Below are positions 19,314-29,093 of a stretch of 53,862 nt of DNA, piece by piece (the first letter of the stretch is position 1; each line of letters opens with the position of its first letter). The translations under genes and the position numbers were made by a program. Source of the DNA: an uncultured Methylococcaceae bacterium (GTDB lineage: Bacteria; Pseudomonadota; Gammaproteobacteria; Methylococcales; Methylomonadaceae); contig CAJAQT010000049.1 of the NCBI GenBank assembly GCA_903944165.1, forward strand, positions 1 through 53,862, written 5' to 3'. The notes under the pieces are model-generated. The model worked only from the letters and a program-made list of their open reading frames with translations, was not told the origin of the DNA and did no database searches.

Positions 19314-22300
19314 ATGATGAATTTATATACCAAAAATAAAATTTACCTTAGCTTTGCAAGCTTGGGTGGCTTTTTAATTTTTTTCACTTTTTTATTGTTT
19401 AATCAGGGTGTAAACATAAAAAATGTTAGCAAGGACATTGACACACGGTGGATGCCACGCATCGTCGCAAGCAATGCGATGAATACAATTATCAGCGATT
19501 ATCGTGCTGCCATTGCACAACATATTAATTCAACTAGCGCCTCTGAAATGGATGAGTATGAACAAGTCATCAGCACGCTTAACGATGAAATGGCGACATG
19601 GCAAAGCAAGTATGATCAGCTGATTGGCTCAGATAATGAGCGCCAATTATTTCAAGCTTTTGTTAGCAGTCATAACACCTATTTAACACTCAGCCGGCAA
19701 TCCCTTGTGTTTTCTCAAAACCAAGAACATCAAAAAGCCATGGATCAATTTCGACGAAATCGCAATGCTTTTACGGAATTAAGCCAGAAAAATGTGCACT
19801 TGATTAACTTTAATAATACTGGCAGTCATGACGCGGTTACCCAAGGCAATAAAATATTTTCGCAGGCTCAAACCATTTGTTTAACGGGTGGTGTGTTGCT
19901 TAGTCTGTTGTTAATAAGCTTTGCCGTGCTGCTCTATCATGCGCCACTGAAACACGCAAACCCTATTAAACAAGCCGCGATTCGCAAAAAAAGCATTCTG
20001 CTATATCTTGTGGTTATTTTTGCCTTTTGGTTATTTGATGGTCTTTTTTATCAGCAATTAGAACGCTCCAACCAACAAATCAGTGCTTTAAATACGCATT
20101 GGCTGCCGCAAATTATCACTATTAATAATCTAAACAATAAAATCAGTAATTATCGCGTTACTGAAGCGTTACTTGTCTTGTCAAATACTGCTGAGGAAAT
20201 TGAACGTTGGACTAATCAATTCAAGCAATTAACGCAAGATATCGAGGATTTAGAAAAAAGCTATCAGACTAGCTTGTTAACCGATAATGAACGGACTATT
20301 TATGCTGAATTTTTAAATCTATTTGGCGAATACCAATCGGCAATACACCATACGACTGAATTAATCCAAAATAAACAAACTGCTGAAGCTGGCAAGCAAA
20401 TTAAACATAACAATATTATTTTTGCTGATTTTCGCATTAACCTCACTGATCTCATCATGCTTAATGAGCGAGGCTGGTTAACGACTAATCAAATTATTGA
20501 CAGCACCTTAGAAACGTTAAAAATCATTAGTTTAGGAGGCGGTGGTGCGTTATTAATATTATTAGTTATCTGCGCGACAACTATACAAACTTGGCTTCAT
20601 GACTTGCCTTTAGATAACACGCCGCAACAACACGCGCGCGCCTTTTCTATTAAACTTAAATTACGGATGGCGTTTTTTGGCATGGTCATCACCTTTATGT
20701 TGTTTGGTTTGTTGATTAATAAACTAATGTTAACTGTTAATTATGAATCTCAAGCCTTAGCCCGTAACTGGTTGCCTAGTATTATTATTATCAATACAAT
20801 TAATACCTTAACCAGTGATTACCGCATTGCTGAGACACAACATATTTTGGCGCATGACACTATCGACAAACTATTTTGGGATAAAAATCTGCTACGCAGC
20901 AAACAAAAAATTAATCAAGCCTTGCATAATTACCAAGCCCTTATTTATTCAGACGAAGAACGCGATATTTATAATATTTTATTAACCGCTTATGAAGACT
21001 ATCAACTGCGTAGCGATAAAATGTTAATTTTGTCGCGTCAACAGAGCGCACTCCAGATAATGATGCCACTACTGCAAAATAATCAATTATTATTTAATGC
21101 CTTAAGTAAAAATCTAAACAAACTTGTTACCCTAAATTCTGAAGGCGGTTTTGATTCAGCTCAACGTAACCAATACATATACCAACAAGCACAACTCATT
21201 ATTTTTGCTGTTATTTTAATTATTTTGTTAACAGCGATTCTGTTTATGCTTATTTTTGATAAAAATATTTCTGTCGCCTTGCAACAATTAACCGCAGCTA
21301 TGCGCGGCTTAGCACGAGGCGAGCTAAATTTTACGCAGCAAAGCTTAGCGCATCGCCATGATGAAATTGGCGAAATGGCAGACGCATTATTCGAAGTTAG
21401 CCAAATATTACGCAATGTCAGTAAAGATTCAACTGACTTAATTAGTGCAGCTAAAGCCGGCATACTGTCAGCAAAAGTCGAGGCATCACGACATCCTGGT
21501 GAGTTTGCTCATACTGCCGAGGGCATGAATACGATCATTGCAACCTTAAGTGAACCCTTGGGTGAATTAGTACAAATCATGCAGAATCTTGCCTTAGGCG
21601 ATTTGGAGGCACGCATGCATGGGCATTACGAAGGGGAATTGCGCATTTTAAAAACCAATGTTAATCGTAGTTTAGATGCCTTAGTCAATTTATTAACCGA
21701 ACTGGGCAGTGCCATGCAACTTATGGCGGCGGGTGATTTACGCTCGCAACTGAGCGGTAATTATCAAGGTGAATTTTCTGTATTAAAAGCTAACACGAAC
21801 AAAACCATCGCTCAACTCACTCTGATTATGGGCAAAATTATTATTAATACTGCTGATGCGGCGGTTGCAATTACCCAAGCTTCTTCGTCATCGCAGTATG
21901 TGGCTGAACAATCAGCGCAGCAACTCAGCGCCATTGAACACGCACAAATCACGCTTGCCGAAACCGCAGTCTCTATTCACGCCATTGCCAATAAAGGTAA
22001 AGAAAATGATGACTTGGCGCGTGTAACTGCACAATCAACGCTTCTTGGTCAAGATGAACTCACTAAGCTTATTGAGTTAATTCAGCATATTGACGCTGAA
22101 TATTTACGCATTGAAAAAATCACTGATGAAATAACGCGTATTGCAGATAAAACCCATTTGTTATCACTCAATGCAGGTTTAGAAGCCATGCGTGCAGGTG
22201 AGCACGGCGAGGGCTTTGGCTTTATTGCGCAACAAATTGGACGTTTGGCTGAAGAAGCCTCAGTTTCTGCGCGCACGATTGGTGACGTAATTAATAGCTC

Positions 22301-22592
22301 AGGACAAAATATTCGACTAAGTGTTCATGCCACGTTAGAAACGCAAGCAGCGATGAATGCTATTGCTAATGCAGCACAAAACAATGCACTTAATGTTGCC
22401 AGTATTTCGGTGGCTATTGCCCAACAATCAGAGGCCATGCAATCACTTAATGAGCGCGTTAAAACGATACGTGTCAGTAGCGAAGCCACTGCGGCAGCGT
22501 CTGAACAAATCAGTACCACAATGGCGCAGTTAGCACAGACTATCCGTCTAACCGCAGATGATGTAAAACGCTTCCAACTTACTGAAAAATAA
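19314..22592 (+). CDS. methyl-accepting chemotaxis-type protein with three tandem 4HB-like sensor modules
   Basis: Three repeated units 'W(M/L)PxI...N..I(S/T)(D/N)YR', 'DNERxxYxxF'; HAMP-like region 'AMRGLARGELNF'; 'LLSLNAGLEAMRAGEHGEGFGFIAQQIGRLAEEA' MCP hairpin tip. Confidence 0.88.
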   Translation: MMNLYTKNKIYLSFASLGGFLIFFTFLLFNQGVNIKNVSKDIDTRWMPRIVASNAMNTIISDYRAAIAQHINSTSASEMDEYEQVISTLNDEMATWQSKYDQLIGSDNERQLFQAFVSSHNTYLTLSRQSLVFSQNQEHQKAMDQFRRNRNAFTELSQKNVHLINFNNTGSHDAVTQGNKIFSQAQTICLTGGVLLSLLLISFAVLLYHAPLKHANPIKQAAIRKKSILLYLVVIFAFWLFDGLFYQQLERSNQQISALNTHWLPQIITINNLNNKISNYRVTEALLVLSNTAEEIERWTNQFKQLTQDIEDLEKSYQTSLLTDNERTIYAEFLNLFGEYQSAIHHTTELIQNKQTAEAGKQIKHNNIIFADFRINLTDLIMLNERGWLTTNQIIDSTLETLKIISLGGGGALLILLVICATTIQTWLHDLPLDNTPQQHARAFSIKLKLRMAFFGMVITFMLFGLLINKLMLTVNYESQALARNWLPSIIIINTINTLTSDYRIAETQHILAHDTIDKLFWDKNLLRSKQKINQALHNYQALIYSDEERDIYNILLTAYEDYQLRSDKMLILSRQQSALQIMMPLLQNNQLLFNALSKNLNKLVTLNSEGGFDSAQRNQYIYQQAQLIIFAVILIILLTAILFMLIFDKNISVALQQLTAAMRGLARGELNFTQQSLAHRHDEIGEMADALFEVSQILRNVSKDSTDLISAAKAGILSAKVEASRHPGEFAHTAEGMNTIIATLSEPLGELVQIMQNLALGDLEARMHGHYEGELRILKTNVNRSLDALVNLLTELGSAMQLMAAGDLRSQLSGNYQGEFSVLKANTNKTIAQLTLIMGKIIINTADAAVAITQASSSSQYVAEQSAQQLSAIEHAQITLAETAVSIHAIANKGKENDDLARVTAQSTLLGQDELTKLIELIQHIDAEYLRIEKITDEITRIADKTHLLSLNAGLEAMRAGEHGEGFGFIAQQIGRLAEEASVSARTIGDVINSSGQNIRLSVHATLETQAAMNAIANAAQNNALNVASISVAIAQQSEAMQSLNERVKTIRVSSEATAAASEQISTTMAQLAQTIRLTADDVKRFQLTEK

Positions 22593-24271: not shown

Positions 24272-25963
24272 ATGCAGTTTACAGATAGTTTTTTTTGGCA
24301 ATTTTGGCGCCTAGCTGGTCCTTTTTGGCAAGCTCCCACGCCTACAATTCGTACACAAAGCTTCGCAATTATCACGTTAACTGTTTTACAAATGGTTATT
24401 GCCGTCATCATTACCGCGTGGAGTTCAGCATTATTTAATGCCTTAGAACAACATTCTATGTCAGGACTTTTAACTCAAATTGGGTTTTTAGTCCTGATTT
24501 TTTTGAGCAATATTGCCGTAACGACCAGTCATTTAAAAATCAAACGTAACTTACAAATAGAATGGCGTAAGTGGTTAACCGAACGCGTACTAAGGCAATG
24601 GATGAACCATGCTCATCACTATCAGGTGACGCATATTCAAACTGCATCTCATGATAATCCAGATGGCAGAATCGCTGAAGATATCCGCATTGCGACGGAA
24701 GAGGCCATTAGCTTAAGCCATTCTTTTTTTTATAGCGTGCTACTGTTACTTAGTTTCACCACCTTATTATGGTCTTTGTCTGGCGTAGTACAGATTGATT
24801 TAGGGCTTTTTTCTGTGCAATTACATGGTCATTTAATTCTTATCGCGATTGCTTATGCTAGTGCAGCATCTTTTTTAGGCTGGCGTATTGGTCAGCCATT
24901 AATTACCGCAACCGATAGCAAACAAAGTACCGAAGCAGATTTTCGATTTGATTTAGCAACAGCACGCGATCACTCTCTTGCCATTGCCTTAATTCATAGC
25001 GAAGAAGATGAACGTTCGCGTTTTGCGTCATTATTTCAACATGTGCACACGGCATTTATTGCGCAAACTCATGCAATGATGGCAATTATGCAATTTACCT
25101 CGGGTTATTCTGTTTTATCAACGGCCTTTCCAATCTTAGTCTCAGCACCTCGTTATATCTTAGGCTCTATTAGTTTAGGCGCACTTATGCAATCAGCCCA
25201 AGCTTTTCAACACATGACTTCAGCCTTATCTTGGCCAGTGGATAATATGTCTGGCTTGGCGCAATGGCGTGCATCGGTAGAACGAGTATTAAGCCTAATC
25301 AAAGCCTTAGATGATTTAGAAGGTGAATTGGCAAAACCTGCTCCCAATCGCATTAGCTTTACTAAAGGACAAGACTCCACCTTACGCATTGCTAATCTAT
25401 GTATTACACAACTAGATAATACGGTATGCGTCTCTTGCGTTAACGCAGAAATACGCGCTGGCGAACGTGTGTTAATTACGGGAAATACTTTTAGTAGCTC
25501 AAAATTATTTAAGGTTATTACTGGCTTATGGCCTTGGGGCTCTGGCCAGATTGAACTCCCTGATGATGAACCTATCTTTTTTATGCCGCCTCGACCTTAT
25601 TTACCCACAGGCACGTTACGCAATGCTATTTGCTATCCTTCCAGCGAAGTTGCCATGAGCACGGCAGAATTAACAGCAACACTTAGCTTAGTTGGTTTAT
25701 CCACACTCAGTGAAGCACTCGACACGGTTGATTGTTGGGAAAAATCACTCCCACGCGATCATCAACAACGCTTGGGCTTGGTGCGTTTACTTATTCGTCA
25801 ACCAAAATGGATTTTACTGCAAGAATCGTTTGACTCTCTTGACCCTGAAGGTGAACAACAAATGTTTGAAATTATTTGTCAACACTTACCCAATGCCACG
25901 ATGTTAACCATTACTAATCAACCTACGGCTAAGCAATTTCACACACGACAAATTGACATTTAA
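24272..25963 (+). CDS. YddA/SbmA-type ABC half-transporter with degenerate ATPase domain
   Basis: 'QFWRLAGPFW', 'NPDGRIAEDIRIATEEAISL', 'ITGLWPWGSGQI..IFFMPPRPYLPTGTLRNAICYP'; catalytic motifs altered. Confidence 0.88.
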   Translation: MQFTDSFFWQFWRLAGPFWQAPTPTIRTQSFAIITLTVLQMVIAVIITAWSSALFNALEQHSMSGLLTQIGFLVLIFLSNIAVTTSHLKIKRNLQIEWRKWLTERVLRQWMNHAHHYQVTHIQTASHDNPDGRIAEDIRIATEEAISLSHSFFYSVLLLLSFTTLLWSLSGVVQIDLGLFSVQLHGHLILIAIAYASAASFLGWRIGQPLITATDSKQSTEADFRFDLATARDHSLAIALIHSEEDERSRFASLFQHVHTAFIAQTHAMMAIMQFTSGYSVLSTAFPILVSAPRYILGSISLGALMQSAQAFQHMTSALSWPVDNMSGLAQWRASVERVLSLIKALDDLEGELAKPAPNRISFTKGQDSTLRIANLCITQLDNTVCVSCVNAEIRAGERVLITGNTFSSSKLFKVITGLWPWGSGQIELPDDEPIFFMPPRPYLPTGTLRNAICYPSSEVAMSTAELTATLSLVGLSTLSEALDTVDCWEKSLPRDHQQRLGLVRLLIRQPKWILLQESFDSLDPEGEQQMFEIICQHLPNATMLTITNQPTAKQFHTRQIDI

Positions 25964-26014: not shown

Positions 26015-27142
26015 ATGAATACTGTTCATCATTCCCCTTCACAGCAAGGGAAAAAATTACGCGGCGTTAATTTAGGCAGTTGGTTAGTCATTGAAAAATG
26101 GATGGTTCCTAGCTTATTTGCAGGAACAAATGCTACGGATGAAACCTCTTTTTGTGTTGAATTAGGCGACCGCGCCACTTCTGTTTTAACTCACCATTGG
26201 CAAACCTTTATTACCCGAGATGATTTTGCGTGGTTAGCTGAAGTGGGCATTAATGCCGTACGCATTCCAGTGGGGCATTGGTTATTTGGCGCTGACTATC
26301 CTTATCATCCTGCCTACGGCACTAACCCCTATCCTTTTGTCGTTGGAGGCATTGATATTTTAGATCAGGCGTTTGCTTGGGCTGAGGAATTTAAGCTAGC
26401 CATTATTCTTGATTTACATGCTGCGCCAGGCTGCCAAAATGGTTTTGATAATGGTGGTATTAAAGACGTGTGCGAATGGCATACCCAAACGGCTTATCTT
26501 GAGCACACCCTCACTATTCTTGAACGCTTGGCTGAACGTTATCAACAGCACCCTGCTTTGCACGGTATCGAGGTTCTAAATGAACCACGCTGGGATATTC
26601 CTACTGAGTATTTAAAAGCCTTTACCACTGAAGCCTATCAACGTATTCGCAAACATTGTGCCCCAGAAAATGTCGCCGTGGTCTTTCATGATGGCTTTCG
26701 TTCCTTTACAGAATACAGTGGTTTTTTAATGCCGCCAGATTTTACCAATACCGTATTTGATATTCATCGCTATCAATGTTTTGTCAGAGAAGATATTGAT
26801 TTAGATATTTTTGGTCATGCCCATAAAACACTTACTGAATGGAAACAGGAAGCAGATGACATCAATCATGACCGAGGCGTGGCAAGTTATGTGGGTGAAT
26901 GGAGCTTAGGCATTGATTTACATGTCGTGTCATTATGGGCAGATGGCCCTTTTAATCATGCCCTAGAGGGACTTGATGAATGTCAGGCTAATATTGCTTA
27001 TCGTCTCTATGCCGCAGCACAATTAGCTACCTTTGAACATCATTTAGGCTGGTTTTTTTGGAGTTATAAAACCGAAACCACCCCAGCATGGTGTTTTAGA
27101 GAGTGTGTTGAACGCGGTTGGCTACCCAATAATTTTAGATAA
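26015..27142 (+). CDS. glycoside hydrolase family 5 (glucan beta-glucosidase-like)
   Basis: 'LRGVNLGSWLVIEKWMVPSLF', 'VRIPVGHWLF', 'LDLHAAPGCQNGFDNGG', 'GIEVLNEPRWD', 'YVGEWSLGID'. Confidence 0.9.
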   Translation: MNTVHHSPSQQGKKLRGVNLGSWLVIEKWMVPSLFAGTNATDETSFCVELGDRATSVLTHHWQTFITRDDFAWLAEVGINAVRIPVGHWLFGADYPYHPAYGTNPYPFVVGGIDILDQAFAWAEEFKLAIILDLHAAPGCQNGFDNGGIKDVCEWHTQTAYLEHTLTILERLAERYQQHPALHGIEVLNEPRWDIPTEYLKAFTTEAYQRIRKHCAPENVAVVFHDGFRSFTEYSGFLMPPDFTNTVFDIHRYQCFVREDIDLDIFGHAHKTLTEWKQEADDINHDRGVASYVGEWSLGIDLHVVSLWADGPFNHALEGLDECQANIAYRLYAAAQLATFEHHLGWFFWSYKTETTPAWCFRECVERGWLPNNFR

Positions 27143-27557: not shown

Positions 27558-29093
27558 GTGAACAAAACAAAGCAACTTTTCGCTGGTCTGATTCTGTTAG
27601 CCTTAAGCTTAGAATCAGCTTATGCGGACTACACGCTCAATTTAATGAAAGGGGTCACAAAAGTCAGTAATGACGTTTATGATCTACACATGCTAATTCT
27701 ATGGATTTGTATTTTTATAGGCGTTGGTGTGTTCGGTACTATGTTTTATTCGATTTATCATCATCGTAAATCAAAGGGACATAAAGCCGCACAATTTCAT
27801 GAAAATACCACTGTAGAAATTATCTGGACTATTATTCCCACCTTAATCCTTGTGGGCATGGCTATCCCCGCTACAAAAACGCTATTAGAATTAGAAGATG
27901 TGCAAAATTCTGACATGTCAATCAAGGTTACTGGCTGGCAGTGGAAATGGGAATATGAATACCTTGATAATGGCATTCATTTCTTTAGTAGTTTAGATGA
28001 AGCCAGCAACAAAGCTCGTCAAGTAGGCTCTGGAATTGATCCTCGTACAGTTCCTCACTATCTATTAAATGTTGATAAACCTCTTGTTATCCCAACAAAG
28101 AAAAAAATACGCTTTGTGTTTACTGCTGCGGATGTTTTACATTCTTGGTGGGTGCCTGATTTAGGCTGGAAAAAAGACGCTATCCCTGGTTTTATCAATG
28201 AAGCGTGGACTTCTGTTGAGCAAGCCGGCACCTATCGCGGTCAATGTACTGAGTTATGTGGTAAAGATCATGGTTTTATGCCTATTGTTGTTATTGCAAT
28301 GGATCAACCTGATTATGATGCCTGGGTCAAAAAATCATTAGACGATGCTAAAAAAGGCGCTGACTTAAGTGCTCAATCACATGCGCAATTAATGGAAGAA
28401 GGCGCTGAAGTGTATGCCAAAAATTGCTCTACCTGCCATTTACCTGATGGTAAAGGCGTACCAGGTGCCTTCCCTGCAATCAGCGGCAGTGCGATTGCGA
28501 TGGGTGACATTAATGCTCAAGCCAAGTTTATCATCAATGGAAAAGCAGCTATGCCAGCGTTTGGCAAAATGTTAAAAGCAGATGAATTGGCGCAAGTTAT
28601 CACTTATACCAGAAATGCCTTAGGTAATAACGTTGGCGATGAAATTCAACCTGATGCAATTCAAGCACTGCTTCCTTCTAAATCAGCACCTAAAGAGACA
28701 GCTAAAGAAATTGCGCCTAAAACTGGCACAGCTGAACAAATACCTGTTGCCGATAAAACTAAAGAGGAATTAAACGCGCTTGGCAAAGCCGTGTATGCAA
28801 GTAATTGCGCCTCATGCCACCAAGCTGAAGGTCAAGGCATGCCACCAATGTTTCCTGCCTTAACAGGCAGTGCTTTAGTGAAAGGTGATATCAATGCTCA
28901 AATCGATTTAATACTAAAAGGCAAAGGCATGATGCCCGCATTTGGTCATTCTTTATCAGCGACTGATTTTGCGGCAGTAGTGACCTTTACTCGCAACAAT
29001 TTGGGTAATTCAGTCAACGATTTAATCCAACCTTCCGCTATTCAAAAGCTGCAAGCTGAATTGCCTGCGGAAGCAAACGATGACGATGATTAA
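27558..29093 (+). CDS. coxB: cytochrome c oxidase subunit II with two C-terminal cytochrome c domains
   Basis: 'WQWKWEYEY', '[20 protein letters not shown]', '[14 protein letters not shown]'; two CXXCH motifs (CSTCH, CASCH). Confidence 0.95.

Follow-up and report, generated by a model that had tools for sequence, protein, structure and literature searches.

A conserved pseudo-ATPase domain in a YddA/BclA-type ABC half-transporter of methanotrophs: a probable ATP-independent transporter beside beta-glucan enzymes

Degenerate sites are common among heterodimeric ABC exporters, such as TmrAB and TAP, and the known degenerate-site subunits still contribute half of a functional composite site. The passage from an ABC pump to an ATP-free transporter is known from a single group, SbmA/BacA, in which the nucleotide-binding domain (NBD) is already gone, the branch is long, and intermediates are not preserved. 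SbmA is thought to derive from YddA-like proteins and uses a six-glutamate ladder (PMC13316013), while transport by BclA requires ATP hydrolysis (PMC12003926). The protein described here belongs to a clade for which no prior report was found among the openly accessible journal papers searched, and these likewise gave no precedent for an ABC transporter with a degenerate Walker A or pseudo-ATPase, or for a BacA-like protein in methanotrophs.

The gene is encoded in the window, the whole 53,862-nucleotide stretch of DNA analysed, which comes from an uncultured Methylococcaceae bacterium. Its open reading frame at 24272-25963 starts with ATG, has a GGAGG-type ribosome-binding site immediately 5', and follows the YddA/BclA-type order of a PF06472/PF05992 membrane domain (TMD) and then a C-terminal ABC domain fold (Pfam, AF2). 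The location of the frame and all transporter motif strings quoted in the initial annotation are verified, and the normal YddA/SbmA-type permease domain it described agrees with Pfam matches to ABC_membrane_2 (3.9e-30) and SbmA_BacA (1.8e-15). ABC_tran reaches 20.5 bits, under the curated Pfam cut-off of 25 bits. The features are as follows.

24272..25963, + strand: intact CDS, 563 aa, YddA/BclA-type ABC half-transporter with a conserved pseudo-NBD judged catalytically dead (ORF, Pfam, orthologs)
24272..25321, + strand: TMD, residues 1-350, ABC_membrane_2 / SbmA_BacA fold (Pfam, AF2 helices, Rv1819c 6tqe as top fold match)
24530..24532, + strand: His87 codon, TM2, candidate protonatable residue chosen by conservation alone, role putative
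24698..24721, + strand: Glu143 to His150 codons, TM3, flanking I146 (aligned with SbmA E203), role putative
25352..25960, + strand: pseudo-NBD, residues 361-563, motifs lost, fold predicted to be kept (alignment, AF2, dN/dS)
25481..25507, + strand: former Walker A GNTFSSSKL, residues 404-412, one residue deleted, without GK[ST]
25580..25600, + strand: former Q-loop FMPPRPY, residues 437-443, with Pro440 in place of Gln (Pro in most Methylococcales members)
25748..25774, + strand: former ABC signature LPRDHQQRL, residues 493-501, Gly and Glu of LSxGE lost
25808..25825, + strand: former Walker B WILLQE, residues 513-518, with Gln517 in place of Asp, catalytic Glu518 retained
25913..25924, + strand: former H-loop TNQP, residues 548-551, His replaced by Asn549
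26015..27142, + strand: GH5 exo-beta-1,3-glucanase, conserved partner gene, 51 bp downstream of the transporter

The motif losses are read against Rv1819c (6tqe), the best solved relative by sequence and fold. The reported loss of Walker A holds, GK[ST] being absent, and the P-loop is additionally one residue short, with nine residues (GNTFSSSKL) against the ten of G-x4-GKS/T-x-L. Also as reported, LPRDHQQRL lacks the Gly and Glu of the LSxGE signature and the H-loop His is replaced, by Asn549. For Walker B, the exchange of Asp for Gln517 is correct, but the motif is not wholly gone and keeps the catalytic Glu518. FMPPRPYLP, which had been listed as a surviving landmark of the fold, is in fact the lost Q-loop and cannot be counted as kept because its Gln is Pro440. 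Five ATPase motifs are lost in all, and the D-loop SLDP is still present, as is Glu518. With these replacements, the nucleotide-binding domain of the window protein is almost certainly ATP-free.

An AF2 model built on a 22-sequence alignment has a mean pLDDT of 74.8 and a pTM of 0.50 as a whole, with modest confidence in the TMD, and the NBD blocks mostly have a pLDDT of 76-92, with one block at 65. The secondary structure predicted for this part is that of an ABC domain, both strands and helices, with the P-loop shortened ahead of the first helix. In fold, the model matches Rv1819c (6tqe) best, a type IV transporter, over its full length. The ABC fold of the pseudo-NBD is thus predicted to be retained.

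Close homologs are present in 24 of 41 related genomes, and a GTDB scan places the gene in Methylobacter, Methylovulum, Methylomonas, Crenothrix, Methylomicrobium, and Methylicorpusculum, all Methylococcales methanotrophs. The substitutions, which the initial annotation had proposed to look for in relatives, form an identical set of rewritten motifs at 80 of the 80 Methylococcales loci fetched from GTDB, with ortholog examples such as GNAFTGSKLFKAI, FFMPPRPYLP, LSREQQQRLG, WILLQEAFDSL, and NQPTAEAFH. The residues that have taken the place of the old motifs are themselves conserved (FFMPPRPYLP, LxREQQQRLG, WILLQE, NQP), and the motif loss is far beyond chance because the replacements recur in all of these independent loci. 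Frames are full-length throughout the 80, contig-end cuts aside. Sequencing error as the cause of the motif loss is ruled out by the nearest species (L031, 92% identical) together with the 80 independent loci.

Between the window and L031, dN/dS is 0.090 for the TMD and 0.092 for the NBD, and the medians over 23 disjoint pairs are 0.072 and 0.076, respectively. The pseudo-NBD is under purifying selection equal to that of the membrane domain. Eroded motifs in every ortholog and a pseudo-NBD dN/dS of ~0.09 bear out the earlier proposal of selection for a non-hydrolysing domain. Neither orthologs with intact motifs nor relaxed selection, which would have pointed to decay, are seen in the clade, and the motif loss is shown to be ancient and shared across it. 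The sole ortholog with an interrupted frame in the first survey (G014:C72:5433-7110) carries one TAG or frameshift in an assembly that is 88% complete, and this may be an error.

The clade extends over Methylococcales, one alphaproteobacterial order that includes Azospirillum, and one further gammaproteobacterial order, with members in 23 of 120 sampled genomes of the alphaproteobacterial order and three of four of the other gammaproteobacterial order. It is set apart by a score gap in class and phylum searches, at ~650-1080 bits against <= ~450 for all others; genes that consist of a TMD only score lower because they are shorter. In the tree computed from the TMD only, the clade is monophyletic (support 100/99), its sister group consists of intact alphaproteobacterial proteins (Rhizobium CCGE532, Nitrobacter X14), and two Azospirillum plasmid genes fall within it. 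The first trees held long-branch rows (L188, YddA, L120, L141, L157), and a careful tree built without them recovers the same clade. Azospirillum plasmid records label clade genes 'ABC transporter ATP-binding protein/permease', which is a misleading label for these proteins. On plasmid pAB510e of Azospirillum sp. B510, the P-loop-less transporter (L126) has a GH1 beta-glucosidase on one side and a Crp/Fnr regulator on the other.

The erosion is graded within the clade. The P-loop has nine residues in 113 of 113 full-length members, with GK[ST] in none of the 113, whereas all 40 intact relatives have ten residues and GK[ST]. An alignment artefact is excluded, as the distance from the fixed G404 to L412 is nine residues in the 113 and ten in the 40. 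Among the alphaproteobacterial members, the Q-loop Gln is retained by 18/25, the signature Gly by 12/25, the H-loop His by 10/25, and the Walker B Asp by 1/25, and some of those retaining Gln, Gly, or His may still make weak nucleotide contact. Methylococcales members keep the signature Gly in 0/85 and the H-loop His in 7/85, and none keeps the Q-loop Gln or the Walker B Asp. Since loss of the P-loop is the sole change common to all members, it suggests itself as the founding event.

A second, separate PF06472 clade with an eroded NBD (L025, L026, L027, L124, L125, L192; e.g. G027:C1:3089006-3090487) occurs in another Methylococcales family, with several copies per genome and up to six PF06472-like matches in one (G743). 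Its motifs read GPNEEAKQALF or GENQTAKVALF, with the Q-loop Gln changed to Glu, FLDR at Walker B, and no H-loop His. The P-loop there has normal length, so this erosion is independent.

Three genes of the clade consist of the TMD only, namely L115 and L160, from two species of one genus, and L185, a second copy in Methylomonadaceae, with open frames of 430, 416, and 380 aa, respectively. A six-frame search of their surroundings finds no NBD remnant, and hisH/hisF-like sequence, read by eye, lies 3' of L115 and L160. In trees from TMD columns, these genes are nested at two separate places in the clade (support 99/95 and 100/98), and a single origin is rejected (AU p 5e-50). Complete loss of the NBD has, on these phylogenies, been shown to occur twice within the clade, with the TMD gene surviving. 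No other indirect evidence argues as strongly as the persistence of such genes for a transporter that works free of ATP.

The gene downstream of the transporter (26015-27142) is an exo-beta-1,3-glucanase of family GH5 (PDB 8z2w, 1cz1), and its N-terminus is not signal-peptide-like. A GH5 homolog lies downstream on the same strand at 55 of 81 loci, 69 of the 81 having >1.5 kb of downstream sequence. One locus (L186, G771:C9:72000-78500) holds the pseudo-NBD transporter in two tandem copies adjoining the GH5 gene. Across 41 genomes, GH5 and transporter co-occur in 24 of 24 carriers and are both absent from the other 17, two of which are family members; this pattern represents few independent gains or losses, the informative genomes being G017, G021, and G025 versus G032/G038. 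Among alphaproteobacterial members, a GH1 beta-glucosidase adjoins 11 of 25, versus 0 of 39 intact relatives with equal flanks (Fisher 6e-6), the 11 loci including several close relatives and representing about seven lineages. No GH gene was found near either of the TMD-only lineages or near the members in the order of G156.

Two other genes of the window stand out. Positions 27558-29093 encode a cytochrome c oxidase subunit II that starts with GTG and has two cytochrome c domains fused in tandem at its C-terminus. Positions 19314-22592 encode a 1092-aa chemotaxis receptor in which three consecutive 4HB sensor modules precede the HAMP and signalling domains; its conservation at this position is limited to the nearest relative.

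Glucan synthesis is also represented near this family. One Methylococcales member (L193) sits in a cluster of GH17, GT2, transporter, and GH30. The window genome has a homolog of the GH17-GT2-type synthases elsewhere than the transporter (C217:6489-9029); for this synthase type, of which the one from Methylomonas methanica has been modelled along with others, production of cyclic beta-1,3-glucan has been proposed (PMC10237404). The homolog adjoins the gene for an intact ABC exporter, which is MsbA-like and has canonical motifs (G000:C217:6451-11037; L199:1951-6538), and coordinates in several relatives suggest the same GH17-GT2/MsbA-like pairing. The glycosidase association could also reflect a non-transport role, or export instead of import.

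The best explanation, with a probability of roughly 65%, is a homodimeric, ATP-independent transporter that probably imports beta-gluco-oligosaccharides and carries a structural pseudo-NBD. The pseudo-NBD would serve dimerisation and/or closing of the inner gate and would not be a motor. A beta-(1,3)-gluco-oligosaccharide or beta-glucoside would enter the cell and be cleaved by cytosolic GH5 in Methylococcales or GH1 in alphaproteobacteria, and the GH17-GT2 synthase that the organism itself encodes could be the glucan source in the window genome. The driver in place of ATP would be either a proton gradient, through substrate/H+ symport as in SbmA, or intracellular hydrolysis pulling a facilitated uptake. 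Transport without ATP is the likely part of this reading. A beta-glucan-related substrate stands at even odds, and the inward direction is a tentative proposal.

Proton coupling is likewise put forward with some doubt. Several polar residues in the TMD are specific to the clade (H87, K91, R92, H150, Q265, Q310, Q313, and acidic residues at 143 and 337). His87 is invariant in the clade and rare among intact relatives, position 143 is acidic in every member, and His150 is present in 97%. E143 and H150 lie one helical turn to each side of the position of SbmA E203; a proton role for the pair is putative, and the candidates for symport would be His87, His150, and Glu143.

The pseudo-NBD might have acquired a different use, that of a non-hydrolytic gate which binds another ligand, such as a glucan metabolite or a nucleotide bound in a novel manner, and so controls a facilitator. 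Strong conservation of the rewritten residues, including Lys/Arg411 in the helix of the old P-loop and Glu518, fits such a gate, but the TMD-only paralogs show the domain to be dispensable in two lineages, which makes this reading improbable, if the best placed of the alternatives. Slightly less probable is that the protein is no longer a transporter and now serves, as a scaffold or sensor in the membrane, to regulate either the glycosidase next to it or the cell envelope. Loss of the motor and the tight link with cytosolic glycosidases fit that idea; against it, conservation of the TMD equals that of the NBD, invariant polar residues lie inside the membrane helices, and TMD-only versions persist, like the proven transporter SbmA.

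A degenerate half of a heterodimeric exporter, with the ATPase supplied by a partner as in TmrAB and TAP, is a still poorer fit. Degenerate sites are frequent in such pairs, and some alphaproteobacteria also have an intact relative elsewhere (the second match in G337; Azospirillum B510). However, neither composite site could be complete because one and the same subunit has lost its P-loop, the Asp of Walker B, the signature Gly, and the His. Exactly one PF06472 gene is present in the window genome and in each sampled relative of the genus, the two matches of G015 being parts of a single gene that its fragmented assembly has split. The sampled genus genomes therefore offer no sister half-transporter of this TMD family that is competent as an ATPase. 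No half-transporter gene adjoins the pseudo-NBD transporter at the examined loci. A homodimer is the simplest reading of these gene counts, though the sequence leaves some chance that the protein pairs with an unrelated ABC subunit.

The initial annotation placed the protein between YddA-type exporters and SbmA/BacA, and the kind of change it had in mind is supported while the lineage is not. For a true intermediate towards SLiPT transporters, a relic of the lineage that founded SbmA/BacA, speak the same type of change in this protein and in SbmA/BacA and the YddA/BclA-like ancestry of both (PMC13316013). Yet, of the SbmA ladder, only E193 and E276 have counterparts (window E136 and E221), and these also occur in intact relatives including YddA; E203, E269, E287, and E378 align with I146, T214, R232, and Q331. 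The window protein has ladder glutamates at two of six positions, both ancestral, and with the ladder not conserved, the best-known proton route is missing. Homology to SbmA begins at about residue 91 of SbmA and residue 31 of the window protein, leaving TM0 without a counterpart. SbmA scores ~152 bits with a profile of intact YddA/BclA proteins versus ~56 with the clade profile, and on the tree it stands among intact proteins, with an AU p of 0.03 against joining the clade that is weak given the very long SbmA branch. Membership in the founding lineage is accordingly very unlikely, and a separate origin of the clade is indicated: the transition ran in parallel and reached NBD-free end points of its own. 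That the NBD is a mere relic drifting to a pseudogene, as five of five altered motif sites and the G014 copy split by a stop or frameshift might suggest, is rejected with hardly a doubt because of dN/dS (~0.09, equal to the TMD) and the conservation of the rewritten motifs, along with full-length frames at 80 of 80 loci except for contig-end cuts.

In a further-reaching interpretation of the clade, the order of events would be deletion in the P-loop first, rewriting of the other motifs lineage by lineage, and dropping of the whole NBD at least twice. The combined picture, in which an ABC exporter became, independently and in stages, a transporter that needs no ATP and takes up beta-glucan fragments alongside cytosolic glucosidases, has about an equal chance of being right or wrong. 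If true, this would be a second group besides SbmA/BacA to have crossed from primary to secondary or facilitated transport. The clade displays the stages in living, culturable bacteria such as Methylomonas, Methylobacter, Methylovulum, and Azospirillum: the pseudo-NBD is strongly selected, motifs are lost by degrees, and some derivatives have no NBD at all. The order of events becomes testable. It also raises the question of what use an ABC domain unable to bind ATP can have, and the beta-1,3-glucanase link provides a first substrate hypothesis.

Compared with known systems, the GH17-GT2 (NdvB-like/Orphan) synthases (PMC10237404), which have homologs in the window genome and directly beside L193, make glucan rather than transport it, and are not strictly coupled to the transporter because they are also present in the transporter-less genomes G017 and G021. 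TmrAB, TAP, and MsRv1273c/72c likewise have an NBD in which catalytic residues are naturally missing, but retain one complete site via a partner, whereas the window protein has no complete site and no partner gene was found. YddA, BclA, and Rv1819c have the same PF06472/PF05992 TMD family and domain order (Rv1819c 6tqe, sequence E 1e-55); the window protein differs in lacking Walker A, the Gln of the Q-loop, the Gly of the signature, the Asp of Walker B, and the His of the H-loop. SbmA/BacA shares an ABC-exporter-like TMD without a working ATPase and descent from YddA-like ancestors (PMC13316013). SbmA, however, has no NBD and has a TM0 region and the six-glutamate ladder, while the window protein keeps a pseudo-NBD with a predicted fold; the SLiPT feature of having no NBD is present, within the clade, only in L115, L160, and L185.
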